Below are positions 17,168 to 43,397 of a DNA stretch of 64,000 nucleotides, one piece after another (the stretch's first letter is position 1; each line of letters starts with the position of its first letter). The notes beneath the pieces were generated by a model. It was not told the DNA's origin, made no database searches, and saw nothing but the letters and a program-made list of their open reading frames with translations. A program made the translations under genes and the position numbers. The stretch comes from Pedobacter metabolipauper (GTDB lineage: Bacteria; Bacteroidota; Bacteroidia; Sphingobacteriales; Sphingobacteriaceae): positions 434,001 through 498,000 of the forward strand of contig NZ_SNYC01000004.1 in NCBI RefSeq assembly GCF_004362715.1, in the 5' to 3' direction.

Positions 17168-18362
17168 AAGTAATGCTGCTTTTTAAGATGATACGAAATG
17201 TAGTTCCTTTACCAAGTTCTGAATCTTTAACAAAGATCTGTCCGCTATGGTAATTTTCGATGATCCGTTTGGTTAAGGACAATCCAAGTCCCCATCCCCG
17301 CTTACGGGTCGTATAGCCAGGTTGGAAAACAGCATCGAACTTAGAGCGTGCAATTCCTTTACCGGTATCAGAAACATCAATAAAAACTTCTTCTTTGGTT
17401 AGGTTCTCAATAATATTTACGGTAATACTACCTTCATTTTCAATCGCATTTGCTGCATTTTTAAGCAGATTCTCTGTAACCCAGTCAAATAAAGGCACAT
17501 TGAGCAATGCACGTACCTGGTCGTCACCGGTAATGGTAAAAATTACCTTGTCAGAAGTGCGCAGTTTAAAGTAATCAATAAAGTCTGAGATCACGGTATA
17601 TACCACATGATCTTCTAAGATCGGTTTAGACCCTATTTTAGAAAAACGGTCAGTAATGACTTCCAGGCGTTTAATGTCATTTTCCATCTCTGCAATCAGC
17701 GGATCATCTTCGGCATCAAAGCGCGATTTCATCAGTTCTACCCAGGCCATGAGTGAAGATATTGGAGTACCCAGCTGGTGGGCGGTTTCTTTGGCCATAC
17801 CAACCCATACCTGGTCTTGCTCAGCCTTACGTGCAGAACTGAAAGCAACATAGGCCGTTAACAGGAATAATGCAATTACGCCAAGCTGAATGTATGGAAA
17901 GTACCGGAGCTGCGTTAATGTCGGCGAATCTTTATAGTAAATGTTCCAGCGTGTTCCATTCAGGCCAATGATCGGCGTAGGCGGATGCTGCTTTTTCATT
18001 TTTCGTAATTCTTTAGCAAAGTATTCCGGATCGTAATTTACATTGACCTTTTTTTCAACATCATAATTGGTCTTTGTGGTATCCAGGCCTTGATAGCTGA
18101 GTATAACCCCGCCAGAGTCTGTCATGATTACGGGAAGCTTGTTATTGGTTCGGATCAGGTCTATTAATCCGGTATAATTATCGTCGTCATACATGATAAA
18201 GGACTGCTCTGTAACCCGAACATAAAGCTGGAACTGGACCTGTTCTTCACGCTCCATCTTTTTAACGAATGAATCGCTGTAAAACACAGAGGCTGTACCT
18301 ATAATGATGGCAAATACCAGTAAAAAGAATTTCCAGCGGCGTTTTTTTTCGTATGGATTCAT
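17148..18362 (-). CDS. Membrane sensor histidine kinase
   Basis: 404 residues. Membrane helices at about 11-28 and 155-174 enclose a periplasmic sensor domain of about 125 residues without a recognised fold. The H-box is AKETAHQLGTPISSL with His195, followed by a HATPase domain with N (ENLLKNAANAIENE), G1 (DTGKGIA) and G2 (GWGLGLSLTKR) boxes. The AHQLGTP variant is common in Bacteroidota kinases. No response regulator is adjacent, so its partner is elsewhere. It is the first gene of an operon with DinB and the thioesterase. Confidence 0.9.
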   Translation of the reverse strand: MNPYEKKRRWKFFLLVFAIIIGTASVFYSDSFVKKMEREEQVQFQLYVRVTEQSFIMYDDDNYTGLIDLIRTNNKLPVIMTDSGGVILSYQGLDTTKTNYDVEKKVNVNYDPEYFAKELRKMKKQHPPTPIIGLNGTRWNIYYKDSPTLTQLRYFPYIQLGVIALFLLTAYVAFSSARKAEQDQVWVGMAKETAHQLGTPISSLMAWVELMKSRFDAEDDPLIAEMENDIKRLEVITDRFSKIGSKPILEDHVVYTVISDFIDYFKLRTSDKVIFTITGDDQVRALLNVPLFDWVTENLLKNAANAIENEGSITVNIIENLTKEEVFIDVSDTGKGIARSKFDAVFQPGYTTRKRGWGLGLSLTKRIIENYHSGQIFVKDSELGKGTTFRIILKSSITYEPTSN

Positions 18363-29679: not shown

Positions 29680-30495
29680 ATGAAAATTTACCCTTACCTG
29701 GCCTGTCTGGTTCTTTTAGCTTCTTGTTCTGTTAACAAATATACAGCCACAAATAAGATCTATAAAAAGCAGGCTGCGGGCTACGCAGAAACCATTAGAT
29801 CCTTTCCGCCTGTTAACCAGGCCATAGATTCTTTATCACCAGACCAGCAATCCTGGGTTGGATCAATCAACTTCGGAATCAGGAAACCAAATTATGTGGT
29901 AATACACCATACCGCACAGGATTCCCTGCAGCAAACCATCAATACTTTTATCGTAAAGGGCAGGTCTGAAGTCAGTTCTCATTATGTAGTCGGCAGAAAA
30001 GGTGAAGTGGTTCAAATGGTTAATGACTACCTGAGGGCACACCATGCGGGGATCGGGAAATGGGGTAATGATAAGGACCTGAATTCTTCATCCATAGGGA
30101 TTGAAATTGACAATAACGGTAAAGAACCCTACTCAGCCGTTCAGCTAAAAAGTTTAATGACGCTTTTGGCTACATTAAAGAAACGGTATAACATTCCGGC
30201 AGCAAACTTTATCGGCCATGCCGATGTTGCTCCCGGAAGGAAAAACGATCCCAGGAATTTCCCCTGGAAAGTATTTGCTAAAAAGGGTTTCGGCTTGTGG
30301 TATGATGATGTGCTGCTGTTACCGCCGCCGGATTTTGATGCTGTAGCCGCACTTAGAATTATTGGCTATGACGTTAAGAATCTTCCTGCCGCTATTGAAG
30401 CATTTAAGATCCACTTTGTACAGACGGATATTACACAGGTATTGACACCTGCAGATAAACTGATCCTGTTTAATTTATACAAGAAATACATGTAA
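29680..30495 (+). CDS. Lipoprotein N-acetylmuramoyl-L-alanine amidase (Amidase_2)
   Basis: 271 residues with a lipobox at LLASCS (Cys about residue 16). The amidase_2 fold shows zinc-ligand candidates in VIHHTAQ and GHADVAPGRKNDP, plus the SSIGIEIDNNG strand, as in AmiD/AmpD-type enzymes that split the bond between muramic acid and the stem peptide. The C-terminal about 60 residues (RIIGYDVKNLPAAIEAFKIHF) resemble a peptidoglycan-binding helical module. Likely outer-membrane anchored, acting in wall recycling. Single gene with a strong terminator. Confidence 0.9.
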   Translation: MKIYPYLACLVLLASCSVNKYTATNKIYKKQAAGYAETIRSFPPVNQAIDSLSPDQQSWVGSINFGIRKPNYVVIHHTAQDSLQQTINTFIVKGRSEVSSHYVVGRKGEVVQMVNDYLRAHHAGIGKWGNDKDLNSSSIGIEIDNNGKEPYSAVQLKSLMTLLATLKKRYNIPAANFIGHADVAPGRKNDPRNFPWKVFAKKGFGLWYDDVLLLPPPDFDAVAALRIIGYDVKNLPAAIEAFKIHFVQTDITQVLTPADKLILFNLYKKYM

Positions 30496-30534
30496 AAAAA
30501 GGAAGCCGGATCTCATTGATCCGGCTTCCTTTTT
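30494..30534. terminator. Bidirectional terminator between amidase and glnS
   Basis: Perfect 12-bp stem GGAAGCCGGATC (30501-30512) with its complement at 30518-30529, a 5-nt loop, a preceding A-run and a trailing T-run. It serves both convergent genes. Confidence 0.88.
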
Positions 30535-30536
30535 AT

Positions 30537-32198
30537 CTACTTATTACTTTTTGCCCAGGCATCCTTTAAAGAAACCGTTCGGTTAAATACCAGGTGGTCC
30601 GGAGTAGCATCCTTATCCACACAGTAATACCCTTTTCTAATGAACTGGTACCTGGAGTCCTTATCTGCATTTACAAGATATGGCTCTATATATGCTTTCT
30701 CAATCACATTCATGCTTTCTGCATTGATGTAATCTTTAAAATCGCCTTCTTCAGAATCCGGGGATTCTACGGTAAATAACCGGTCGTACGTACGGATTTC
30801 TGCACTTTTTGCATGCTTGCTGCTTACCCAGTGAATGGTTCCCTTCACGTTTATACCACTGGTATCTTCTCCGCTTTTGGATTCAGGGATATAAGTGCAA
30901 TAGATCTCGGTAACCTGGCCATCCGCATCCTTTTTAAAGTCTTCACATTTTACAATGTAGGCATGTTTCAGCCGTACCGTTGCTCCCGGCGCCAATCTAA
31001 ACCATTTCTTTGCGGGCTCTTCCATAAAGTCTTCGCGTTCAATCCACAGCTCATTGCTGAACGGGATCTCACGGGTTCCGCCTTTATCTTCTGCTTCCGG
31101 ATTATTCTCACCAATAAGGATCTCGTCCTTACCTTCAGGATAATTGGTAATGACCAATTTGATCGGGTCTAATACTGCCATTACACGGGTAGCCGTTTTG
31201 TTCAGGTGCTCACGAACACAAAACTCCAGCAAGCTAAGCTCAATCAGGTTTTCTCTTTTGGCAATTCCGATGCGCTCGCAAAATTCACGAATACTTTCAG
31301 GAGTATAACCACGTCTTCTTAATCCGCTGATGGTAGGCATCCTCGGATCGTCCCAGCCACTTACAATACCTTCATTTACCAGTTGAAGCAGCTTGCGTTT
31401 ACTCATCACGGTATAGGATAGATTAAGACGGGCAAATTCATATTGTTTGGAAGGAAAAATCTCCAGTTTCTCAATAAACCAGTCGTAAAGTTCACGGTGG
31501 GCAACGTATTCTAAGGTACAGATGGAATGGGTAATGGTTTCGATGCTATCGCTTTGTCCATGTGCAAAATCATACATTGGATAGATACACCATTTATTAC
31601 CGGTACGGTGGTGTTCTGCATGCTTGATCCGGTAAATTATAGGATCACGCATCAGCATATTTACACTGGCCATATCAATTTTAGCACGCAGGATGCAGGC
31701 ACCATCCTCAAAATCCCCGTTTTTCATCTGGCTAAAAAGATCCAGGTTCTCCTGGATGCTGCGCAGCCTGTAAGGACTGTCTTTTCCGGGTTCAGTTGGT
31801 GTTCCCTTTAATTCCGCAATTTCTTCGGCACTGCCATGATCTACATAGGCAAGGCCCTTTTCAATCAGCGTTACGGCAAAATCATATAAGGTATCGAAAT
31901 AATCAGAAGTGTAAAGCTCGTTTTTCCATTGAAAACCAAGCCATTTAATATCCGCTTGCTGACTGTCTACATATTCTGTTTTTTCAGTAACCGGGTTGGT
32001 GTCATCAAACCTTAGGTTGGTGTAACCACCATATTTTTTTGTCAGACCAAAGTTCAGACAAATTGCTTTGGCGTGGCCAATGTGCAAATATCCATTCGGT
32101 TCTGGTGGAAAACGTGTAATTAAGGTCTCGTATTTTCCGCTATTTAAATCGTTTTCAATGATCTCTTCAATAAAGTTCAATGATCTTTCCTCACTCAT
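30537..32198 (-). CDS. glnS: Glutaminyl-tRNA synthetase
   Basis: A 553-residue class I synthetase. HIGH motif in FPPEPNGYLHIGHAKAICLNFG, KMSKS as VMSKRKLLQLV, and the two C-terminal beta-barrel domains of GlnRS. The PPEPNGYLHIGH variant separates GlnRS from GltX. The minus-strand promoter TAACTTTG lies at 32218-32225. Confidence 0.97.
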   Translation of the reverse strand: MSEERSLNFIEEIIENDLNSGKYETLITRFPPEPNGYLHIGHAKAICLNFGLTKKYGGYTNLRFDDTNPVTEKTEYVDSQQADIKWLGFQWKNELYTSDYFDTLYDFAVTLIEKGLAYVDHGSAEEIAELKGTPTEPGKDSPYRLRSIQENLDLFSQMKNGDFEDGACILRAKIDMASVNMLMRDPIIYRIKHAEHHRTGNKWCIYPMYDFAHGQSDSIETITHSICTLEYVAHRELYDWFIEKLEIFPSKQYEFARLNLSYTVMSKRKLLQLVNEGIVSGWDDPRMPTISGLRRRGYTPESIREFCERIGIAKRENLIELSLLEFCVREHLNKTATRVMAVLDPIKLVITNYPEGKDEILIGENNPEAEDKGGTREIPFSNELWIEREDFMEEPAKKWFRLAPGATVRLKHAYIVKCEDFKKDADGQVTEIYCTYIPESKSGEDTSGINVKGTIHWVSSKHAKSAEIRTYDRLFTVESPDSEEGDFKDYINAESMNVIEKAYIEPYLVNADKDSRYQFIRKGYYCVDKDATPDHLVFNRTVSLKDAWAKSNK

Positions 32199-32217
32199 AA
32201 AAACTGTAATTTACTGT

Positions 32218-32225
32218 CAAAGTTA
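32218..32225 (-). promoter_or_regulatory. -7 promoter element of glnS
   Basis: TAACTTTG on the minus strand, 19 bp upstream of the glnS ATG. Confidence 0.6.
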
Positions 32226-32274
32226 ATATAAAACCGCTAATTTACTTACATTTACCACCTACTAAGTATAAATT

Positions 32275-32694
32275 ATGAACAAGACATTAAACAGGCCCAT
32301 CCGCGTTTTAGTGGCTAAAGTTGGATTAGATGGTCACGACCGGGGGGCTAAAATTATTGCAACTTCTTTAAGGGATGCAGGAATGGAAGTAATTTATACC
32401 GGTCTGCGCCAAACCCCTGAGATGGTTGTTAATGCCGCATTGCAGGAAGATGTTGATGCCATTGGCATTTCTATCTTATCTGGTGCCCATATGACTGTAT
32501 TTCCGAAAATAATCGAGATCATGAAACAAAAGCAGGTAAATGACGTATTACTTACTGGCGGAGGGATCATTCCTGATGGCGATATAAAAAAACTAAAAGA
32601 AATGGGGGTCGGTGAATTATTTGCACCCGGCACCACCATGGTTACCATTGTAGATTATATTAGGGACTGGGTGAGTACAAACAGAAATTTTTAG
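32275..32694 (+). CDS. Free-standing cobalamin-binding domain (methylmalonyl-CoA mutase C-terminal type)
   Basis: 139 residues, only the B12-binding Rossmann domain. The base-off/His-on motif D19-x-H21-x2-G24 ([10 protein letters not shown]), SILSGAH and TGGGIIP are all present. In actinobacteria and some Bacteroidota, acyl-CoA mutases are split between a catalytic large subunit and such a small B12 subunit; no large subunit lies here. Only 3 bp separate it from the following enoyl-CoA hydratase gene, supporting a role in acyl-CoA metabolism. Confidence 0.9.
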
Positions 32695-32697
32695 ATC

Positions 32698-33480
32698 ATG
32701 ATTTACCATACTATAGTATCAGAATTAAAAGAACAGATCCTTTACATTACCATTAACCGCGAGAGCAAGATGAATGCCCTCAATAAGCAGACACTGGAAG
32801 AACTTGCAGATGCCATTGCATTTGCAGGGAACAGCAATGAGGTTAGGGGAGTGCTTTTAACAGGTTCCGGTGAAAAGGCTTTCGTTGCCGGTGCAGATAT
32901 TTCGGAGTTCTCAGCATATACAACCGAACAAGGTGAGGCCCTGGCAAGAAATGGACATACCCATGTTTTTAATGCGATTGAGAATTGCCCAAAACCTATT
33001 GTGGCTGCCATTAACGGATTTGCATTGGGCGGAGGTCTGGAATTGGCCATGGCCTGTCATATTCGGGTGGCCTCAGATCATGCAAAGCTGGGCTTACCAG
33101 AAGTAACCCTGGGCCTTATTCCAGGTTATGGGGGTACCCAGCGTTTAACCCAGCTGGTAGGGAAAGGTAAAGCCATTGAAATGATTACCACTGCGGATAT
33201 GATCACTGCAGAAATGGCAGAGAAAATGGGTCTTGTAAATTATGTTGTTCCGCAAACGGAGCTGATTGCAAAGGCTGAAGAGATCTTAAATAAAATTAAA
33301 CAAAGAGCACCATTGGCAGTCGCAAGTGCCATTCGGGCAGTAAATGCGAATTTGCACAAAGATGAGGATGGCTTTGAGATAGAAATTGAAGAATTCGGAA
33401 AGTGCTTTAATACTTCAGATTTCAAAGAAGGTACTACTGCTTTTTTAGAAAAAAGAAAAGCCGTGTTTTCGGGCAAATAA
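32698..33480 (+). CDS. Enoyl-CoA hydratase/isomerase family protein
   Basis: A 260-residue crotonase-fold enzyme. The oxyanion-hole segments are AFVAGADISEF and ALGGGLELAMACH, and the catalytic Glu pair is in place (GGGLELA and LPEVTLGLIPGYGGTQRL). It hydrates trans-2-enoyl-CoA in fatty- or branched-acid breakdown. It is co-transcribed with the B12-binding protein, which hints at a short acyl-CoA pathway. Confidence 0.9.
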   Translation: MIYHTIVSELKEQILYITINRESKMNALNKQTLEELADAIAFAGNSNEVRGVLLTGSGEKAFVAGADISEFSAYTTEQGEALARNGHTHVFNAIENCPKPIVAAINGFALGGGLELAMACHIRVASDHAKLGLPEVTLGLIPGYGGTQRLTQLVGKGKAIEMITTADMITAEMAEKMGLVNYVVPQTELIAKAEEILNKIKQRAPLAVASAIRAVNANLHKDEDGFEIEIEEFGKCFNTSDFKEGTTAFLEKRKAVFSGK

Positions 33481-33648
33481 ACCTATGATTAATTTTAATC
33501 ATTTGATAATGAGTAAAATAATCATTTTTTACTGTATTTTGAGCCCATTTCTTATGGGGCAGATCTTTAGGAAAGTGTAGAAAATATTTCCCAGTATAAA
33601 AAAACTAGCTATATTTATCTTTATTAAGCACTAACCCTCTTTTGCTAT

Positions 33649-35052
33649 ATGAGAAAAGTATTAATTGTTGATGATGAAGTAAACATTGGATTGTTGTTGT
33701 CTAAATTCTTAACCAGGAATTCATTCAGCGTGTCCACCGCCTCTAGCGGAGTTGCTGCAATGGAGTTACTATCCAGAGAAGTATATGACCTTGTACTGTG
33801 TGATTACAGGCTGGAAGATACCGACGGTAAAGAAATGCTCATTAAAATAAAAGAAACTTGTCCGGGTACCGGGGTCATTATAATCACAGGATATTCTGAT
33901 ATCAAACTGGCTGTAGAACTGATCAAATTAGGGGCATACGATTATATTACCAAACCACTATATCCGGATGAGATCTTAAATACAATCAATAAGGCCATTG
34001 AGACTCAAATTGCATTGAATTCAAGTGAATCCGATGATTCATCAAACAATACACCCAAGCAAAAGAACACCAAGCAGCCGTATAGTCAGGATGAGAATTT
34101 TGTAGCCGGACAAAGCCCGGCTTCCAAAGAACTGCTGAAACAGATCCAGCTGGTTGCCCCAACTTCTTACAGTGTGATTTTAACTGGAGAAAGCGGAACA
34201 GGCAAGGAATCTGTAGCCCATGCGATCCACATGAACAGTCCGAGAAAAAATAATCCGTTTATCGCGATGGATTGTGGATCCCTGACAAAGGAATTGGCTG
34301 GAAGCGAGTTTTTTGGTCATGAAAAAGGATCATTTACCGGGGCTTTATATACCAAAATAGGACATTTCGAAATGGCAAATGGCGGCACCTTATTTTTGGA
34401 TGAGGTAGGGAACTTATCCTATGAAATTCAGGCCGCTCTTTTAAGGACCGTTCAGGAACGAAAAATTAAACGCATTGGAAGTACCAAGGAAATAGACCTC
34501 GATGTGCGGATTATTGTGGCTACCAATGAGAACCTGGCCAATGCGATTCAAAAAGGAAGATTCAGAGAAGATCTATACCATCGGTTTAATGAGTTTTCAA
34601 TTAGCCTTCCTCCATTAAGCCAAAGGGGAAAAGACATTATGGTATTTGCAAATACATTCTTAGGCTTTGCAAACCGGGAACTGGATAAAAATGTACAGGG
34701 CTTTTCCGAAGAAGTGGAAGAGTGCTTTTTAACCTATAACTGGCCTGGAAATGTCAGGGAGCTGAAAAATGTGGTAAAGCGTGCAGCATTGCTTACAGAA
34801 ATGCAGGAAATCCAGTTAAAGGCACTTCCCCTGGAAATCTCTACCTATGCAAAGGCTACGGCGATTGAAACCTCAATTGCACGGGCAGAAAAACCAAGGG
34901 ACTTAAAAAATGCAGCCCTGGAAGCAGAATATGATGCGATTTTAAAGGTGCTTAGAGAAGTGAACTTTAATAAGACCAAAGCCGCCAGGATCCTAAATAT
35001 AGACCGGAAAACATTATACAATAAAATGAGGGCCATTAACCTGGATACATAG
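33649..35052 (+). CDS. NtrC-family sigma-54-dependent response regulator
   Basis: 467 residues: REC (1-120, phospho-Asp in LVLCDYRLEDTDG), AAA+ domain (about 150-380) with Walker A GESGTGKES and the sigma-54 contact loop GSFTGA (residues 227-232), then a Fis-type HTH (about 425-465, NKTKAARILNIDRKTLYNKM). It should activate RpoN promoters when phosphorylated, most likely by the kinase encoded directly downstream. First gene of a long same-strand run extending to 40.4 kb. A TATCTTTA-like -7 lies near 33615. Confidence 0.94.
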   Translation: MRKVLIVDDEVNIGLLLSKFLTRNSFSVSTASSGVAAMELLSREVYDLVLCDYRLEDTDGKEMLIKIKETCPGTGVIIITGYSDIKLAVELIKLGAYDYITKPLYPDEILNTINKAIETQIALNSSESDDSSNNTPKQKNTKQPYSQDENFVAGQSPASKELLKQIQLVAPTSYSVILTGESGTGKESVAHAIHMNSPRKNNPFIAMDCGSLTKELAGSEFFGHEKGSFTGALYTKIGHFEMANGGTLFLDEVGNLSYEIQAALLRTVQERKIKRIGSTKEIDLDVRIIVATNENLANAIQKGRFREDLYHRFNEFSISLPPLSQRGKDIMVFANTFLGFANRELDKNVQGFSEEVEECFLTYNWPGNVRELKNVVKRAALLTEMQEIQLKALPLEISTYAKATAIETSIARAEKPRDLKNAALEAEYDAILKVLREVNFNKTKAARILNIDRKTLYNKMRAINLDT

Positions 35053-36684
35053 GTGTTAGCAGCAGCAGTTATCGGCATCGGATTTTTAGTACTGCTGTAT
35101 TTTGGAATTAAATGCAGGGCTGTTGTCAAACATTTAAAGGATAGTCTGACTGTATTGCAAAATGAAAATAACCAGCTGTCTGAAAAAACAGAACTGCTGT
35201 CCCTTGCCGAGCAGATCTCCCGCCTCGGAACCTGGCAGATCTCAATTGGCGATGGCATAATAGGCTGGTCTGATGAGCTGTATGCTATCTATGGATTTCA
35301 GAAAAAGGATTTTCGTCCCGATCTTGCCATAAATGAACAAATGGTGGCACCCGAGTACCGGGTAAAAGTCAAAAAGGAAATCGACAATGCCATTAAAAAT
35401 AAAAGCCCTTTTGCCATAGAATACCAGATCATACAGCCGTCCGGAATCCGGAAATATGTATTGTCGCAAGGATTTTATGTAGAAAAGGAGCATAAAATTG
35501 TCGGAACCCTTCAGGACATTACCGAGTTAAAAGAAGCCGTTCTTAAACTTAAGATCAACGAATCTTTATTTAGGGAAGCCGAGATCGTCTCGCATAGCGG
35601 CAGCTGGGAGTGGATTGAAGGAAAGGAGTTTGTCCTTTGCTCCGATGAAATGTACAATCTGCATGGGTACCTGCCGCATTCTGTTTTTATTAATTTATCC
35701 TTCTATAAAAAACTGATCCATAAAGACGATGTTCAGAAAGTGATGGATGAAATTTCTGTAGCGTACCAGAACAAAGCTAAATTTAAGATCAACTACCGGA
35801 TCGTATGGCCCTCTGGAGAGATCAGACATGTACTTTCTACAGCAGAATACAAAAAGATCAGTTTGAATGAGAATTACGCCTATATTGGAAATACACAGGA
35901 TGTAACCCAGCTTCGTGAAGCACAAGTCCTGCTGGAAGAAAAAATGGTTGAACTTAAGCGTTCAAACCAGGATCTGGAGCAGTTTGCATATATCGCATCC
36001 CATGACTTACAGGAGCCATTACGGAAGATCCAGTCGTTTGGAAATCGTTTAAATGATAAGTTTTCCGAAGTGCTGACTGAGGAAGGCCTGGATTATCTGG
36101 GACGCATGAGAAATGCAGCCTCCCGGATGCGGATCTTGATTGATGACCTGTTGAATTTCTCAAAGGCAGCCCGTGATCAAAAAAACTACCTCAGACTGAA
36201 TATGGCTTCGGTTATAGAAAAAAGCATCAGGATCCTGGACCATAGTATAGAGACCAGCAAAGCGGAGATTGAATTGGATGCCAACCTGGAAATAGAAGGT
36301 ATTGAGACCCAATTGGTTCAGTTGTTTCAGAATCTGATCAGCAATTCGATGAAATTTACAAAGCCGGGACAACGGCCGCACATTGAAATTACAGCACAAA
36401 CCAGATCTGGCGCAGAGATTAAGATGGAAGGGATTGATCAGGAACAACACTATGCCGTGATTGAAGTTAGGGATAAGGGGATTGGCTTTGATGAAGAAAA
36501 TGCGGAAAAGATATTCGATATATTCTATCGCCTGCATGCCCGTACGGCGTATGATGGCACAGGAATTGGATTAGCCATTTGCAGAAGGATAGCTGAGAAT
36601 CATTTTGGTTTTATCTATGCGAATAGTGATCCTGGTAAAGGAGCTTCTTTTACACTGGTTTTACCTCAAAAACAAATTAAATAG
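35053..36684 (+). CDS. PAS-domain histidine kinase, GTG start
   Basis: 543 residues. The stop of the regulator (TAG) is followed directly by GTG, taken as the start (VLAAAVIGIGFLVLLYFG forms an N-terminal membrane helix). Two PAS domains (about 50-165 and 170-285) precede a short coiled coil, the DHp domain with His317 (YIASHDLQEPLRKI, the phytochrome-like type) and HATPase (DKGIGF, GTGIGLAICRRI). With its immediate upstream partner it forms a complete two-component system. Confidence 0.9.
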   Translation: MLAAAVIGIGFLVLLYFGIKCRAVVKHLKDSLTVLQNENNQLSEKTELLSLAEQISRLGTWQISIGDGIIGWSDELYAIYGFQKKDFRPDLAINEQMVAPEYRVKVKKEIDNAIKNKSPFAIEYQIIQPSGIRKYVLSQGFYVEKEHKIVGTLQDITELKEAVLKLKINESLFREAEIVSHSGSWEWIEGKEFVLCSDEMYNLHGYLPHSVFINLSFYKKLIHKDDVQKVMDEISVAYQNKAKFKINYRIVWPSGEIRHVLSTAEYKKISLNENYAYIGNTQDVTQLREAQVLLEEKMVELKRSNQDLEQFAYIASHDLQEPLRKIQSFGNRLNDKFSEVLTEEGLDYLGRMRNAASRMRILIDDLLNFSKAARDQKNYLRLNMASVIEKSIRILDHSIETSKAEIELDANLEIEGIETQLVQLFQNLISNSMKFTKPGQRPHIEITAQTRSGAEIKMEGIDQEQHYAVIEVRDKGIGFDEENAEKIFDIFYRLHARTAYDGTGIGLAICRRIAENHFGFIYANSDPGKGASFTLVLPQKQIK

Positions 36685-36698
36685 AATTAACGGGAAAG

Positions 36699-38156
36699 AT
36701 GGAACAGATCAGGGTTTTATTAATTGACGATGATGAAGACGATTATGTCCTAACTAAAGAAATATTTGACCAAATTTCAGATCGCTATGTTTTGGCCTGG
36801 GTTAACAATTACGAAAATGGAATTGCAGCCGTACTAAAAAAGGAGTTTGATGTTTATCTGGTGGATTACCGGCTCGGAAACGGAACGGGAATCGATCTGC
36901 TCAATGAAGCAATCAACTCTGGCTGCGAACAGCCAATTATTATGCTTACTGGTAATAACGATCTACTCATTGATGAGCAGGCCAAGAATATCGGAGCCGC
37001 AGATTACCTGGTCAAAGATGAAATAGATGCTTCTTTACTGGATCGCAGTATCCGCTATTCCATCAAGCAGACCAGCATCTTGAAAGCATTAAAGGATAGC
37101 GAGATTAAATATAGGACCATCTTTGAAAAGGCTAAAGATCCAATCCTGGTTTCTGATTATTCAGGCAGGATCCATGATATGAATGCCGGCGGGTTAAGTT
37201 TCTTTGGCTATGCGCATTCAGAAATTATTAACCTGACTGATGATGTGCTGTTTAAGAATACCATTGACGGAGAGAAATTCAGAAATCTTTTAGAGAAAAA
37301 AGGAGCATTGATCGATTTTGAATGTGAACTGCTTGCTAAAGACGGCACTGCTTTTTATTGCAGCCTGTCATCCGTAATCCAAATTGATATGATCCGGGTC
37401 TCTGAAGTATACCACACCATTATCCGGGATTTAAGTTACAGAAAGGATATTGAGGAGAAATCTGTAAAAATTGGGAAGATGTCAATCTCAGAACATATAG
37501 CCAGGGGACTGGCAGAAGAGGTGCGGGATCCGCTGACCACCATAAACTTTGCCTTAGATGAACTGGCCGCTGATGAAAATCTGCTGGCAAATGAAACGGT
37601 GCAGTCTTATATTGAGATCATTAAAAATAACTGCGACAAGCTGAACATGCTGATGCATGACTTTATTTCCAGCACAGAAACAAAAACGCTGAACCTGCAA
37701 AGACACAGCATTGTAGAAATCATTGAAGAGGCCGTGTCGGAAATGGACGATCTTATTTCCGGAGAAAATATCAGGCTAACGATGAAGCTCGAGGAAACGG
37801 AGCAAAAGGTATTGCTTGATAAGCCAAAAATAAAACACGCGATTACCAGCGTGATTAAAAATGCTGTCGAGGCAATGACTAGTTTTCCAAAGACCATCCT
37901 GATCAGGGGAACAGCAGACCGCGACAGGTATGAGATTGGGATTAAAGACAATGGCTGCGGGGTGAGTATAGAGAACCGCGATTATATTTTTGAACCTTTT
38001 TTTACAACAAAGAAACGGGCAAACGGGTTGGGTCTGACCCATGCACAGCGGGTATTAACCACGCATAAGGGGAACATTGAATATGAATCACTTCCTGAAG
38101 GCAGTTTATTTTTGCTGCACATCCCTTTGTATTATGAAGAAGAGCTTTGGCTTTAA
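36699..38156 (+). CDS. Receiver-PAS-histidine kinase with Glu in place of the phospho-acceptor His
   Basis: 485 residues: REC (phospho-Asp in VYLVDYRLGNG), PAS (about 135-250), then a DHp/HATPase module. The H-box, normally AHEVRNPLT, reads AEEVRDPLT, so the phospho-acceptor position is Glu273 and the following Asn is Asp. The ATP-binding boxes are intact (NAVEAM, DNGCGV, FEPFFTTK, GLGLTHA). Either a pseudo-kinase that regulates the kinase upstream, or a phosphatase, or it uses another residue. It follows the PAS kinase by 14 bp. Confidence 0.88.
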   Translation: MEQIRVLLIDDDEDDYVLTKEIFDQISDRYVLAWVNNYENGIAAVLKKEFDVYLVDYRLGNGTGIDLLNEAINSGCEQPIIMLTGNNDLLIDEQAKNIGAADYLVKDEIDASLLDRSIRYSIKQTSILKALKDSEIKYRTIFEKAKDPILVSDYSGRIHDMNAGGLSFFGYAHSEIINLTDDVLFKNTIDGEKFRNLLEKKGALIDFECELLAKDGTAFYCSLSSVIQIDMIRVSEVYHTIIRDLSYRKDIEEKSVKIGKMSISEHIARGLAEEVRDPLTTINFALDELAADENLLANETVQSYIEIIKNNCDKLNMLMHDFISSTETKTLNLQRHSIVEIIEEAVSEMDDLISGENIRLTMKLEETEQKVLLDKPKIKHAITSVIKNAVEAMTSFPKTILIRGTADRDRYEIGIKDNGCGVSIENRDYIFEPFFTTKKRANGLGLTHAQRVLTTHKGNIEYESLPEGSLFLLHIPLYYEEELWL

Positions 38157-38166
38157 ATAAACGCAT

Positions 38167-39219
38167 ATGTCAATATTTACTTACAAACAGAGGAATTATA
38201 TCAATCTGGGCATTATTATCGCCTTAGGATGTCTAATTGTATACTCTTTACAAGGAATTTTTGGTTCCATTTTAAGTACACTGGTCTTATATACCATTTT
38301 AAGGCCGGCATACAATTACATGGTTGATGTAAAGCTGATGAACAGAAGCTTCTCTGCGGTGCTGCTGCTCTTTGTTTCTTTCATCGTACTCATTCTTCCT
38401 TTTTACACGCTGAGCAGTATGGTCATTGATAAAATTGCGGAACTGCAGAACGATCCGGGCTATTTCAAAAATATGCTTTATAAACTAAAGCACCTGGTGC
38501 CTGCTGGAGGCAACAATCAGAAATTTATAGAAGACGGGCTTAACAAAGCAGGAACATGGGCAACCGGGTTATTTCCTTCTATTATATCCGGTGCATTTAA
38601 CATCGTGCTGGGATTGCTCTTAATGTATTTCCTGCTTTATTTTATGCTGGTAGAAAAGGAAAAGTTCGAGTCTGCACTGGTAAAATATGCGCCTTTCAGG
38701 GAACAGAATGCGCAGCGCTTTGCAGAAGAAATGCGCAATATGACCTATGCCAATGTTTTGGGACAGGGATTTATAGCACTGGTTCAGGGATCTCTGGTCG
38801 GCCTGGCCTTTTATTTCCTGGGCTATTCAGATCCCGTATTCTGGGGGGTAATCACCACGTTCATCTCCTTTGTACCAATATTGGGGCCTCCAGTTGTTTT
38901 TGTTCCGGCTGCACTCATGCAAATTGCCAATGGCAATAACTTTGCGGGATGGGCCATGCTGATCTTTGGATTCGTTGTGGTGATCAATATCGATAATGTT
39001 CTTCGGTTTATGATTGCAAAAAGAGTTGGGAATATACATCCGGTCATTACTGTAATTGGCGTAGTTATTGGTATACCACTATTTGGAATATTAGGACTCG
39101 TATTCGGACCCTTATTAATATCTTATTTTGTATTATTGATCAAGATCTATGAAACGAGCGCCATGGCGACTGACAGATTAGAAAGAATTAAAACAATTTC
39201 CGAACAGGACGCGTTATAA
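38167..39219 (+). CDS. AI-2E family membrane transporter
   Basis: 350 residues with about seven to eight hydrophobic segments and the PerM/AI-2E pattern (GYSDPVFWGVITTFISFVPILGPPVVFVPAAL and HPVITVIGVVIGIPLFGILGLVFGPLL near the C-terminus). Family members export small molecules or act as antiporters; a role in autoinducer-2 export is not implied. It lies 10 bp after the kinase gene, so it may be controlled by, or signal to, that system. Confidence 0.9.
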   Translation: MSIFTYKQRNYINLGIIIALGCLIVYSLQGIFGSILSTLVLYTILRPAYNYMVDVKLMNRSFSAVLLLFVSFIVLILPFYTLSSMVIDKIAELQNDPGYFKNMLYKLKHLVPAGGNNQKFIEDGLNKAGTWATGLFPSIISGAFNIVLGLLLMYFLLYFMLVEKEKFESALVKYAPFREQNAQRFAEEMRNMTYANVLGQGFIALVQGSLVGLAFYFLGYSDPVFWGVITTFISFVPILGPPVVFVPAALMQIANGNNFAGWAMLIFGFVVVINIDNVLRFMIAKRVGNIHPVITVIGVVIGIPLFGILGLVFGPLLISYFVLLIKIYETSAMATDRLERIKTISEQDAL

Positions 39220-39286
39220 TATTACCAGTTAAGGCAGCGTAAAACTTAAGCACGTAAAATTAAACATTAACATAAATTAAAGTATC

Positions 39287-39553
39287 ATGAATGATAATTC
39301 AAAAGTATTAGTTGGGCTTTTAGCCGGTTTAGCTGCAGGTGCAGCACTAGGTTTGTTATTTGCTCCTGAAAAAGGAAGTGAAACCAGAGATAAATTAAGC
39401 CAGTCATTAAAAGATCTTGGAGATTCTATTAAAGACAAAGCGGCAGATGAAATTAATAACCTTGCTGGTTTAAAAGATAAAGTAGTAAGTTCCGTAAAAA
39501 ATAAACTCCGCCAAACTGAAGAAGAGTTTGCTGATGATGTTGAACACGCCTAA
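39287..39553 (+). CDS. YtxH-domain small membrane protein
   Basis: 88 residues with an N-terminal Gly/Ala-rich helix (VLVGLLAGLAAGAALGLLFAPEKGSETRDKL), the YtxH/gas-vesicle-like signature, and a charged C-terminal amphipathic helix. Usually linked to general stress in other bacteria; the function is unknown. Followed by a holin-like gene and a small unknown gene, a common Bacteroidota trio. Confidence 0.88.
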   Translation: MNDNSKVLVGLLAGLAAGAALGLLFAPEKGSETRDKLSQSLKDLGDSIKDKAADEINNLAGLKDKVVSSVKNKLRQTEEEFADDVEHA

Positions 39554-39581
39554 ACGATAATAAAGCTTAAAATCAAAAATA

Positions 39582-39965
39582 ATGCAGGAGAATAAAGAAA
39601 AGGGACTTGATGACCTATACGAAGATGCCAAGAGCTATTTAGATACGAAGGTTGAATACACGCGTCTTTACCTGGTTGAAAAAATATCTAAGATATTTGC
39701 CGATATGGTAACGAATGCAGCTGTGATCTTCTGCTTTGTACTGGCTTTCCTATTTGGTACGTTCACGCTTGCCCTATTTTTATCAGATGTTCTTGGAACA
39801 TATACCAAGGGCTTTGGCTGTGTTGCTTTGATTTATATACTGTTAGCATTAATTGTATATTATACTAAGGATAAGTACATTGAGAAAGCTATAATTAACT
39901 TTACGATCAGAAATTACTTTAATAAATTGGCCGACAAGGATGAAGACGAAGAGCAGAAGATATAA
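39582..39965 (+). CDS. Holin-X-like (DUF1469) membrane protein
   Basis: 127 residues with an N-terminal charged helix, two membrane segments (about 41-65 and 72-97) and a basic/acidic tail. It resembles the YqjE/actinobacterial holin-X superfamily, which despite its name is chromosomal and unrelated to lysis. Nothing phage-like surrounds it. It overlaps the next gene by 26 bp. Confidence 0.75.
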   Translation: MQENKEKGLDDLYEDAKSYLDTKVEYTRLYLVEKISKIFADMVTNAAVIFCFVLAFLFGTFTLALFLSDVLGTYTKGFGCVALIYILLALIVYYTKDKYIEKAIINFTIRNYFNKLADKDEDEEQKI

Positions 39966-40392
39966 TATCAACAACCTGGATGAACTCCATAAAATGGTAT
40001 GTAGTTTAAAAGATGAGGGCAATCTTAAAAAAGAAGCACTGATCAGCGATACCAAGGTTTACGTTAAACAGTTTAGCCTGGGTAATATCATTAAACGGTA
40101 TGCTACGCCTTCTGCATTTCTTAAGGTTGATGAGAAGTTAAATATTAGCAGCAGTGTAATGTCTTTGGTACTGCCATTGGTTATGAACAGTACAATTTTC
40201 AGAGGTTCCGGGTTAATCACCAAAGCACTTGTAGGCCTTGCCTCAGGTAAGGTTGGAAAGTCTTTGGATGCAGAACACCTTTCTGGCATATTTAACTCAG
40301 TAAAATCATTGTTTACGGGTTCTAAGAAGAAAAAGCCGAAGGAAGGATATGCTGTAGATTATGGGATTCCGCCGGATAGCGAAACTTATTAA
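39940..40392 (+). CDS. Conserved-looking hypothetical protein following the YtxH/holin pair
   Basis: 150 residues. The N-terminal pattern MKTKSRRYNINNLDELHKMVCSLKDE is typical of a Bacteroidota family that starts with a YNIN-x-LDEL helix; the middle is hydrophobic (SSVMSLVLPLVMNSTIFRGSGLITKALVGLASG), suggesting two membrane-spanning or membrane-associated segments. The start inside the preceding gene is supported by that N-terminal pattern. A strong terminator follows. Function unknown. Confidence 0.7.
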   Translation: MKTKSRRYNINNLDELHKMVCSLKDEGNLKKEALISDTKVYVKQFSLGNIIKRYATPSAFLKVDEKLNISSSVMSLVLPLVMNSTIFRGSGLITKALVGLASGKVGKSLDAEHLSGIFNSVKSLFTGSKKKKPKEGYAVDYGIPPDSETY

Positions 40393-40395
40393 ATA

Positions 40396-40421
40396 AAAAA
40401 GGGAGCTTAGCTCCCTTTTTT
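40396..40421. terminator. Bidirectional terminator
   Basis: GGGAGC-TTA-GCTCCC at 40401-40415 with an A-run before and a T-run after; it lies between the hypothetical gene (+) and aspS (-). Confidence 0.8.
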
Positions 40422-40428
40422 ATTGCCG

Positions 40429-42174
40429 TTATACGGTTGTTTGTATTTTCAATTCTTTCAGTTGTTTTTCATCAATGGTTGATGGGCTATCAATCATCAC
40501 ATCTCTGCCTGAATTATTTTTAGGGAACGCAATAACGTCTCTAATACTGTCCAAACCAGCGAAAATTGAGCATAAACGATCAAAACCAAATGCAATTCCA
40601 CCATGTGGGGGAGCGCCGAACTCAAAGGCATCCATCAAAAAGCCAAATTGCTTTTGGGCCTCTTCATTAGAAAACCCTAAATGCTTAAACATCAAGGCCT
40701 GTAATGTCCTGTCGTGAATCCGGATAGAACCACCGCCAATTTCAGTACCATTTACAACCATGTCATAGGCGTTTGCACGCACGGCTCCCGGATTGGTATC
40801 CAGCATAGCGATATCCTCTGGCTTTGGAGAAGTGAACGGATGGTGCATGGCATGATAACGGCCAGACTCTTCGTCCCATTCTAAGAGCGGGAAATCCAAT
40901 ACCCACAGTGCGCTAAACTTATTTTTATCACGTAAGCCCAAACGGTTTCCCATTTCCAGGCGGAGTTCACTTAATTGCTTGCGTACCCTGTCAGTTCCTC
41001 CTGCCATGATCAATACCAGGTCTCCAGGTACCGTATTCAATGCAGCAGACCATTTTTTTAACTCATCTTCATCATAAAACTTGTCTACCGACGATTTTAA
41101 TGAACCGTCCTCATTATGTCTCAGGTAAATTAACCCTGTGGCACCAATCTGAGGGCGTTTAATGAAGTCTGTAAGCTCGTCAACTTGTTTACGGGTATAA
41201 CCAGCGCATCCTTTGGCATTGATTCCAATAACCAGTTCTGCGTTGTCAAATACCGGAAAATCTTTTCCTTTAACCAGTGCTGTCAATTCAACAAAGGCCA
41301 TGTCAAAACGGGTATCCGGTTTGTCAGATCCATAGAGGCGCATGGCATCGGCATACTGCATTCTTGGAACTTCCGGCAGGTCAAAGCCCCTGATGTCTTT
41401 GAACAAGGTGCGGATCAGTCCTTCAAAGGTATTTAAAATGTCTTCCTGTTCAATAAAAGACATTTCACAGTCTATTTGTGTAAATTCGGGCTGCCTGTCT
41501 GCACGCAGATCTTCATCTCTAAAGCATTTTACAATCTGGAAATACCGGTCAAATCCGGAAACCATCAGCAATTGCTTAAACGTTTGTGGAGATTGCGGCA
41601 ATGCATAAAATTCACCAGCGTTCATGCGGCTTGGAACGACAAAGTCCCGCGCTCCTTCAGGAGTTGATTTGATCAAAACCGGGGTCTCTACTTCAATAAA
41701 GTCGAGCCCATCCAGATACCGGCGAACAGCCTGCGCCATTTTATGGCGAAGGATCATGTTATTGCGTACCGGGTTTCTGCGCAAGTCAAGATACCTGTAT
41801 TTCATGCGCAGGTCATCACCGCCATCTGTTTCATCCTCAATTAAAAAAGGAGGAAGCTTTGCGGCGTTCATAACTTCAAGCGCTGTTATTTTAATTTCAA
41901 CTGCTCCGGTTGGCATTTTAAGATTTTTGTTCGAGCGCTCTACAACAAGACCGCTTGCTTTAATTACAAATTCCCTTCCCAGGCTGCGGGCAGCCTCACA
42001 CAGTTCGCGGTTATCGTCCATATTGAAAACCAATTGGGTAATTCCATATCGGTCACGAATGTCAATAAAAGTCATTCCTCCCAGATCCCTGGATTTCTGT
42101 ACCCAACCGCACAAGATCACATTTTCCCCTAAGTTCTCAATAGTTAAAGCTCCGCAAGTAGTTGTTCTTAACAT
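40429..42174 (-). CDS. aspS: Aspartyl-tRNA synthetase (bacterial type)
   Basis: A 581-residue class II synthetase: N-terminal OB-fold anticodon domain, catalytic core with motif 2 ([18 protein letters not shown]) and motif 3 (GIAFGFDRL), and the GAD insertion that marks the bacterial type. The minus-strand promoter TATTTTTG at 42195-42202 lies 20 bp upstream. Monocistronic. Confidence 0.96.
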
Positions 42175-42194
42175 TATTAATCCTAATTAAGCCG

Positions 42195-42202
42195 CAAAAA
42201 TA
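42195..42202 (-). promoter_or_regulatory. -7 promoter element of aspS
   Basis: TATTTTTG on the minus strand, 20 bp before the aspS ATG. Confidence 0.5.
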
Positions 42203-42321
42203 TTCATTTTGAACCATATATTTCAACCGCAGGCGATTTTACTTGGTATATTGAAAAAATTTTCAGTAAAGATGCAACGTTTAAAAAAAAACGGCGTCAC
42301 TTAACCTGAATAAGAGAAACA

Positions 42322-42870
42322 TTGGAAACAGTATATATCGATAAACACGTTACCCTGGTTAATGCGTGTAAGCAAGGCGACCGAAAGGCGCAGTTTGAGA
42401 TTTACAAACTGTATGCAAAAGCTATGTATGCGATAGCACTGCGGGTTGTAAACCATGAAGCAGAAGCAGAAGATGTTTTACAGGAAGCTTTTCTGGATGC
42501 CTTTAGCAGGATAGATACATTTAGGGAAGAAACTACATTTGGGTTATGGTTAAAGCAGATCGTGATCAATAAATCCATCAACCTGCTCAGAAAGCGTAAA
42601 GCAGAACTGGTAAGCATAGACGGCATTGATCTTGCTGATGAACTGGACAATGATGAAGAGGATCTGGAGTTTAAAGTAAATGAAATAAAAGAAGCGATGG
42701 AAAAGCTTCCGGATGGATACAGGGTAGTGCTCTCGCTGTATTTATTTGAGGGATATGATCATGAGGAAATTGCACACATCCTTAAAATATCAGAAAACAC
42801 ATCCCGTTCACAATATATGAGGGCCAAGGTTAAGCTAAACAGCTTATTAAAAGAGAGGAGTTTAAAATGA
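42322..42870 (+). CDS. ECF-type sigma factor, TTG start
   Basis: 182 residues from TTG 42322; an in-frame stop lies 13 bp upstream and the next Met is inside the sigma-2 domain, so TTG is the only sensible start. Sigma-2 (about 25-92, YKLYAKAMYAIALRVVNHEAEAEDVLQEAFLDAF) and sigma-4 (about 125-178, YDHEEIAHILKISENTSRSQYMRAKVKL) are present. Its stop overlaps the next gene by 4 bp (ATGA). First gene of a three-gene coupled operon. Confidence 0.88.
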   Translation: METVYIDKHVTLVNACKQGDRKAQFEIYKLYAKAMYAIALRVVNHEAEAEDVLQEAFLDAFSRIDTFREETTFGLWLKQIVINKSINLLRKRKAELVSIDGIDLADELDNDEEDLEFKVNEIKEAMEKLPDGYRVVLSLYLFEGYDHEEIAHILKISENTSRSQYMRAKVKLNSLLKERSLK

Positions 42871-43397
42871 GTAAGAAATTAGAAGAGTACATAAGAGCGC
42901 ATAAAAAAGATTTTGATACCGGAGGATTTTCATCGGATAAGCTGTGGACGAGGATTGAACAGCAATTAGACCAGGAAAAAATAAAAAAGCCCTCAAGGGT
43001 GCCGTATTGGTTAGGTATAGCTGCATCCCTTATCGTTATGATGGCGATTACTTTTATATATACCTATCGTAGTCCGGAAGCGGAGAATACCATTGCCGAT
43101 GTAAATCCAGGCTTTGCAAGAAAAGAAATGAGATTTGCCAGTCTCATTGAAGAGAAAAAAGATAGCCTGGAAGTTTATGCCAAAGATAATCCAGACCTGT
43201 ATAAACAGTTTAGCTCAGACCTTGGAAAACTGGGTGAAGATTATGAACGCCTAAAAAAGGAATTGCAGAATAGTCCAAATCAAAGACTTGTTGTTAAAGC
43301 GATGAGTAAGAACCTGGAACTGCAGCTACAGGTAATTAATCAACAATTGTCAATCATTTACGAAGTGAGTCAATCGAATAAGGAGAACAAAATATGA
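42867..43397 (+). CDS. Probable anti-sigma factor with extended periplasmic part
   Basis: 176 residues: a polar N-terminal part (about 1-44), one membrane helix (about 47-66, WLGIAASLIVMMAITFIYTY), and a helical, probably periplasmic C-terminal part of about 105 residues (EEKKDSLEVYAK... LELQLQVINQQLSIIYEV). It overlaps the ECF sigma gene by 4 bp and the following gene by 4 bp. The sigma-sequestering role is inferred from position and topology; no known anti-sigma domain is recognisable. Confidence 0.65.
   Translation: MSKKLEEYIRAHKKDFDTGGFSSDKLWTRIEQQLDQEKIKKPSRVPYWLGIAASLIVMMAITFIYTYRSPEAENTIADVNPGFARKEMRFASLIEEKKDSLEVYAKDNPDLYKQFSSDLGKLGEDYERLKKELQNSPNQRLVVKAMSKNLELQLQVINQQLSIIYEVSQSNKENKI

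Follow-up and report, generated by a model that had tools for sequence, protein, structure and literature searches.

The pseudo-histidine kinase gene at 36699-38156 (+ strand, 485 aa) of the window, the 64,000-nucleotide stretch of Pedobacter metabolipauper DNA analysed here, is best explained as a former AtoS/NtrB-type receiver-controlled kinase that has come to regulate the neighbouring kinase and NtrC without catalysis, gated by its receiver, a reading to which a probability of about one half is given. It is based on a single ancient loss of the phospho-acceptor His, operon-like linkage, co-occurrence with the neighbouring kinase, selection, and an intact receiver and ATP boxes. The pseudokinase is ancient, under purifying selection and located inside a putative NtrC operon.

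Pfam recognizes in the 485-aa protein a receiver (residues 6-114), a PAS domain, HisKA (268-323, whose 25.9 bits fall slightly below the 26.9 cut-off) and HATPase_c (374-477); the domain spans are receiver 1-125, PAS about 133-250, DHp 255-330 and CA 331-477. At 37512-37532 (GCAGAAGAGGTGCGGGATCCG, translated AEEVRDP) the position of the phospho-acceptor His in an active HisKA is occupied by Glu273 (GAA, 37515-37517, +), and the +4 position, where HisKA phosphatases have Thr or Asn and where Asn is usual, by Asp277 (GAT, 37527-37529, +), as the preliminary description had stated; the acidic residue adjoining the His position is present as E274. That description was equally right in calling the ATP-binding boxes and the receiver Asp complete. 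The N, G1, F and G2 boxes are all found (N388; D417-x-G419-x-G421; F431; G443/G445), and Asp56 (36864-36866, +), the receiver phospho-acceptor, stands in a full catalytic set with D11, T84 and K106. The protein has the layout of a Rec-controlled kinase, in which a receiver with an intact phospho-site lies N-terminal to DHp-CA, and it has the general features of a pseudo-histidine kinase, namely a HisKA/CA fold without acceptor His that is retained under selection. An AlphaFold2 model of the window protein and 22 relatives shows an ordinary kinase fold (mean pLDDT 86, pTM 0.53) with unreliable relative placement of the domains, and structure did not separate the candidate mechanisms.

The normal kinase and NtrC-type regulator reported directly upstream are indeed there. 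The regulator (33649-35052, +) is a sigma-54 response regulator with REC, AAA+ and Fis-type HTH domains and an intact receiver Asp52; the active-looking sensor kinase (35053-36684, +), which opens with a GTG directly after the NtrC stop codon, has an N-terminal hydrophobic stretch, a PAS-PAS-HisKA-HATPase arrangement and an intact His317. An AI-2E/PerM-type membrane protein (38167-39219, +) begins 10 bases past the pseudokinase and is probably on the same transcript, giving the order NtrC, kinase, pseudokinase, PerM-type on a single strand, the genes being separated by 0, 14 and 10 bases. In five genomes (L002, L010, L088, L121, L122) the downstream PerM-type gene has shrunk to short matching remnants. 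No Rfam families were found within 30000-43000 of the window.

This arrangement is shared by relatives: an NtrC gene lies upstream in all 26 His-less loci with at least 4 kb of upstream sequence, and the kinase lies within 1.5 kb upstream in 40 of 42 His-less loci as well as in the window. The upstream kinase has its His in every matched locus (82/82), and the NtrC Asp is present in all 94 matches that cover its position (99 matches overall). Among the His-bearing relatives, a same-strand NtrC gene is found upstream in 18 of 33 loci, and in 10 of these 18 no further kinase of this kind was matched in between, suggesting that the active ancestor was itself an NtrC kinase; it probably served the adjacent NtrC in that role. 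Two side observations concern the same region. A stand-alone receiver-like ORF of 133-156 aa lies between the kinase and the (pseudo)kinase in 13 of 16 loci inspected, which belong to other clades (L011, L012, L014, L015, L018, L019, L021, L022, L028, L032, L154, L169, L172); the window's clade has no such gene there. The upstream kinase frame, 543 aa in the window, measures about 815-824 aa in the majority of E2-clade genomes, a gap which indicates exchange or shortening of its sensor part.

Within its own genome the pseudokinase is the single exception among 69 HisKA matches, all of them aligned, as the other 68 have the His. Together with a published survey in which His-less HisKA domains are rare (0.9%, 722/76,471; PMC12632262), this indicates that the Glu273 observation is both real and unusual. 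A weak HisKA match at 17634-17792 (-) of the window, with 25.7 bits, has the H-box AHQLGTP, with Gln in place of the needed acidic residue.

Relatives were collected as 80 loci from a scan of named species genomes, extended by genus and family searches, and 109 distinct proteins remained after removal of matches below 150 bits and of proteins sharing the last 200 residues. The alignment of 83 rows omits 26 members of the L052-L080 set, almost all of them cyanobacterial, and the tree, which was built from 76 rows without the H-box columns, omits seven more (L048-L050, L067, L073, L075, L160). In this tree all 43 members of one Sphingobacteriaceae clade lack the His, and all 33 relatives outside it have it. 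The distinction is a single change with clade support of 100/100, present in 200/200 bootstrap trees, with no regain; L165 forms a long branch and its placement is unsure. The His was thus lost once, anciently, in the ancestor of a large Sphingobacteriaceae clade, and the loss was then fixed. The loss dates within the family's history, since further genera of this family are represented among the His-bearing relatives (L112, L155, L156, L161-L163). The preliminary description had named His-bearing orthologues as a sign of recent decay; these occur only outside the clade. Its judgement that a simple read error is unlikely holds, as two base changes separate CAT or CAC from GAA, and sequencing error or local decay is ruled out by the agreement of all 42 clade relatives. 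Frameshifted copies were met in L160 (G246), which is His-less and broken after the PAS domain, and in the His-bearing L067 (Chitinophaga sedimenti). L016, titled Flavobacteriaceae bacterium PS02338, groups among Pedobacter in both trees and is probably misnamed.

The residue that replaced the His varies. Across the 43 His-less rows it is Glu in 23, Asn in 12, Asp in 4, Lys in 2, and Leu and Arg in 1 each, with at least 10 changes within the clade; the window's own clade has Glu in 10 of 12 members and Asp in the other two. That several residues are tolerated argues against Glu as a clade-wide essential phospho-mimic. Tyr, the residue characteristic of DivL, occurs in none of the 43.

Distribution within the genus ties the pseudokinase to the kinase. 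Of 145 genus genomes, 25 have a pseudokinase match (E up to 1e-60) and exactly the same 25 have a kinase match (E up to 1e-120), with NtrC matched in 135. NtrC without a pseudokinase match occurs in 110 genomes, and in none of the 40 of these that were inspected was either gene found past NtrC. The kinase and pseudokinase are gained or lost as a unit in this genus. On a quick NtrC tree, in which 18 of 72 inner branches are starred, absence of the pair amounts to 5 changes by parsimony count, of which the starred branches force only 1. NtrC can evidently be controlled without the pair, since its Asp is kept in the 40 sampled genomes without it.

Selection acts on the whole protein in the window's clade. 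For five pairs within this clade dN/dS is 0.02-0.04 over the gene and 0.01-0.04 in CA, ratios that are rough because dS is high, often >1 or saturated, as it is for the window and L005. The ratio of CA to REC distance is 1.5 in the window's clade and 2.0 in the E2 clade compared to 1.2-2.3 in six His-bearing groups; with the low dN/dS, this indicates that the dead core of the window's clade is held about as tightly as the core of His-bearing kinases. The ratio is higher in the N clade (6.9) and in the basal group (2.95), so in other lineages the constraint has shifted to the receiver. With L165 excluded, the half of DHp helix 1 that follows the His site has a conservation of 0.64 in His-less and 0.58 in His-bearing proteins, and the half before it 0.46 and 0.49. 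The conserved half after the His site fits, without proving, continued docking of a receiver. The suggestion that this protein is a pseudo-kinase or a phosphatase tuning the upstream pair can be divided: its pseudokinase part is supported by the absence of the His throughout the clade, by conserved gene order, by a distribution identical to that of the kinase and by purifying selection, and its phosphatase part is unlikely for the window's clade, as set out below.

Several relatives have been reduced further. Five of the 43 rows (L157, L158, L159, L164, L165), accounting for three changes on the tree, stop at 327-334 aa, before CA. Assembly artefacts were considered and rejected, as the next gene begins about 60-240 bases on in four of them (L157, L158, L159, L165), leaving no room for CA. 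In the genus of G206 the short form is found in 6/6 genomes: four proteins consist of REC-PAS and the DHp region, with a degraded H-box in L250, and two are REC-PAS only (258-259 aa). In five genomes (L158, L165, L250, L251, L252) NtrC is followed by the short protein and the kinase is missing or a remnant, so the kinase is not the pseudokinase's sole partner. The receiver is damaged in three of these five loci, in two lineages: L165 has lost the phospho-Asp, and the sister species L251 and L252 have lost one of the acidic pair. Its sites are intact in all 41 His-less rows that have the kinase (0/41 damaged). Decay of receivers without the kinase, though in few and related events, points to the kinase as the source of the receiver's phosphate.

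The same series speaks for a phosphate sink or decoy, in which only REC-PAS would matter, draining the 35053 kinase and competing with NtrC, and the core would be a leftover dimerisation stalk. This explanation would account for the loss of the ATPase domain, for REC-PAS on its own in two genomes from a single genus and for the decayed receivers of kinase-less loci. It also agrees with conservation in the His-less set being highest in the receiver (mean identity 0.68 vs 0.42 for CA; 0.48 and 0.43 in His-bearing proteins). The kinase core is clearly not needed everywhere, given that CA is fast-evolving or lost outside the window's clade and that REC-PAS can occur alone. A sink is the less likely reading, at perhaps one chance in four, as DHp and CA of the window's clade are under strong purifying selection, beyond expectation for a leftover.

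A dedicated NtrC~P phosphatase is less probable again. The appeal of this idea is that HisKA phosphatase activity does not require the His, according to the survey mentioned (PMC12632262), so that its loss would leave a one-way enzyme. In the CrdS work, kinase activity of HisKA proteins is described as needing the His and its acidic neighbour, and phosphatase activity as needing Thr or Asn at +4, and the CrdS N375D variant is reported to have no significant phosphatase activity (PMC3510030). The +4 residue is Asn in 33/33 His-bearing relatives and is kept as Asn in 26 of the 43 His-less rows, for which phosphatase activity is possible on the sequence; in the window's clade it is Asp in 12/12 members, the very change made in CrdS, and CA is missing from 5/43 rows. 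As a general function phosphatase activity is therefore rejected for the window's clade. With Glu or Asp at the His site and Asp at +4, kinase and phosphatase activities are both predicted to be absent there, and without an acceptor His the pseudokinase is not expected to have autokinase activity.

Neutral decay of a useless kinase might be read from the 120 of 145 genus genomes with no pseudokinase match, the faster evolution of CA in the N clade and the frameshifted copy in L160, but it has very little probability against a dN/dS near 0.03 for the window's clade, the long persistence across genera and a receiver whose Asp56 is kept and which is intact in 42/43 tree rows. Least credible of all is a relocated acceptor, the His of the SEHIAR motif raised in the preliminary description: H266 (37494-37496, +) precedes position 273 by one heptad (exactly 7 residues), which would put it on the same face of the helix, and is present in 23/23 E/D-clade rows, but Ile follows it in all 23 where the kinase activity described for HisKA calls for an acidic neighbour (PMC3510030), the position is Arg in 17 His-less rows besides these 23, including the N clade, and in 31/33 His-bearing relatives, and columns 239 and 356 likewise have a His specific to particular clades.

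A receiver-gated regulator acting without catalysis could work in the following manner. The ancestor would have been an AtoS/NtrB-type receiver-controlled kinase serving the adjacent NtrC-type regulator; it lost its phospho-acceptor His once, and the window's clade also exchanged the phosphatase Asn for Asp. The resulting pseudokinase should neither phosphorylate nor dephosphorylate NtrC and would act by binding. The upstream kinase would phosphorylate Asp56 in the N-terminal receiver, and receiver, PAS domain and helical stalk would shift a DHp-CA dimer that may still bind nucleotide and dock a receiver. By holding or releasing NtrC, or by pairing with the upstream kinase, this dimer would set the level of active NtrC. 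Such a protein would combine a receiver-driven change of shape, for which LvrB is the precedent, with an output that needs no catalysis, for which DivL and NifL are. Among these steps we infer the phosphorylation of Asp56 by the neighbour, the binding of nucleotide, the docking to NtrC and the sign of the effect. More tentatively, a cognate kinase of a sigma-54 regulator may have turned into a phospho-receiver-gated anti- or co-activator from which later lineages dropped the ATPase domain and then the DHp domain as a graded series; its own receiver would read the neighbouring kinase's phosphate, and the nucleotide-responsive dead core would dock NtrC without chemistry.

In comparing the protein to known systems, AtoS (below the curated cut-off) and AtoC (below cut-off) are the best NCBIfam names of the pseudokinase and the NtrC-type regulator, respectively. 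Both AtoS and CrdS differ in being active kinases with the His, and they are not known to have an N-terminal receiver. NifA is not known to have a phospho-receiver, whereas the window's NtrC keeps one. The positions examined in CrdS of the CrdS/CrdA system (PMC3510030), namely His, Glu and Asn, are all present in the ancestral HE(I/V)RNP box. NifL, the anti-activator of NifA, is similar in combining PAS, an H-motif and GHKL and in its place near the gene of a sigma-54 activator, with which it shares an operon, and it is described as controlling NifA by binding rather than phosphorylation, as the non-catalytic output proposed here would; its described architecture has no receiver, and its sensing is FAD-based and redox-dependent (PMC8063818).

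LvrB of Leptospira, a Rec-controlled kinase and one of the structural matches of the pseudokinase model, has an N-terminal receiver that drives a DHp-CA core and is phosphorylated by the upstream kinase LvrA (PMC13269768), which is also the best NCBIfam match, below cut-off, of the 35053 kinase. Unlike the window protein, LvrB is an active kinase with its His (H161) and is described as Rec-DHp-CA without PAS, with the putative anti-sigma factor LvrC as its partner (PMC13269768). DivL, a pseudo-histidine kinase of Caulobacter, has a non-His phospho-site across orthologues, keeps all ATP boxes, is described as having neither kinase nor phosphatase activity, both of which are also predicted absent in the window's clade, and has relatives that often lack DHp-CA when the partner is missing (PMC4211667). 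It differs in having Tyr (Ala once) rather than Glu, Asn, Asp, Lys, Arg or Leu at the site, in a described architecture with PAS domains and no N-terminal receiver, and in binding a separate phosphorylated regulator, DivK (PMC4211667). The DivL structure 4q20_B matches the pseudokinase model (Z 21.3, rmsd 6.5, 207 aligned) in a tie with ordinary kinases.

Literature searches found no paper on this His-less kinase family, and in the literature covered DivL is the only His-less HisKA with a described mechanism. What is new in comparison to known pseudokinases is the receiver-first layout, the sigma-54 context and the graded reduction. An annotation as 'histidine kinase' would mislead for this gene across the whole clade. 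A single loss can be traced here via extant steps: other residues in place of the His, Asp in place of the phosphatase Asn, and the disappearance of CA, of DHp and of the partner kinase. With these steps, a constant operon-like arrangement and an output of known type, it becomes testable why a kinase is retained after it has stopped phosphorylating, in what would be a natural case of an enzyme becoming a regulator without catalysis.
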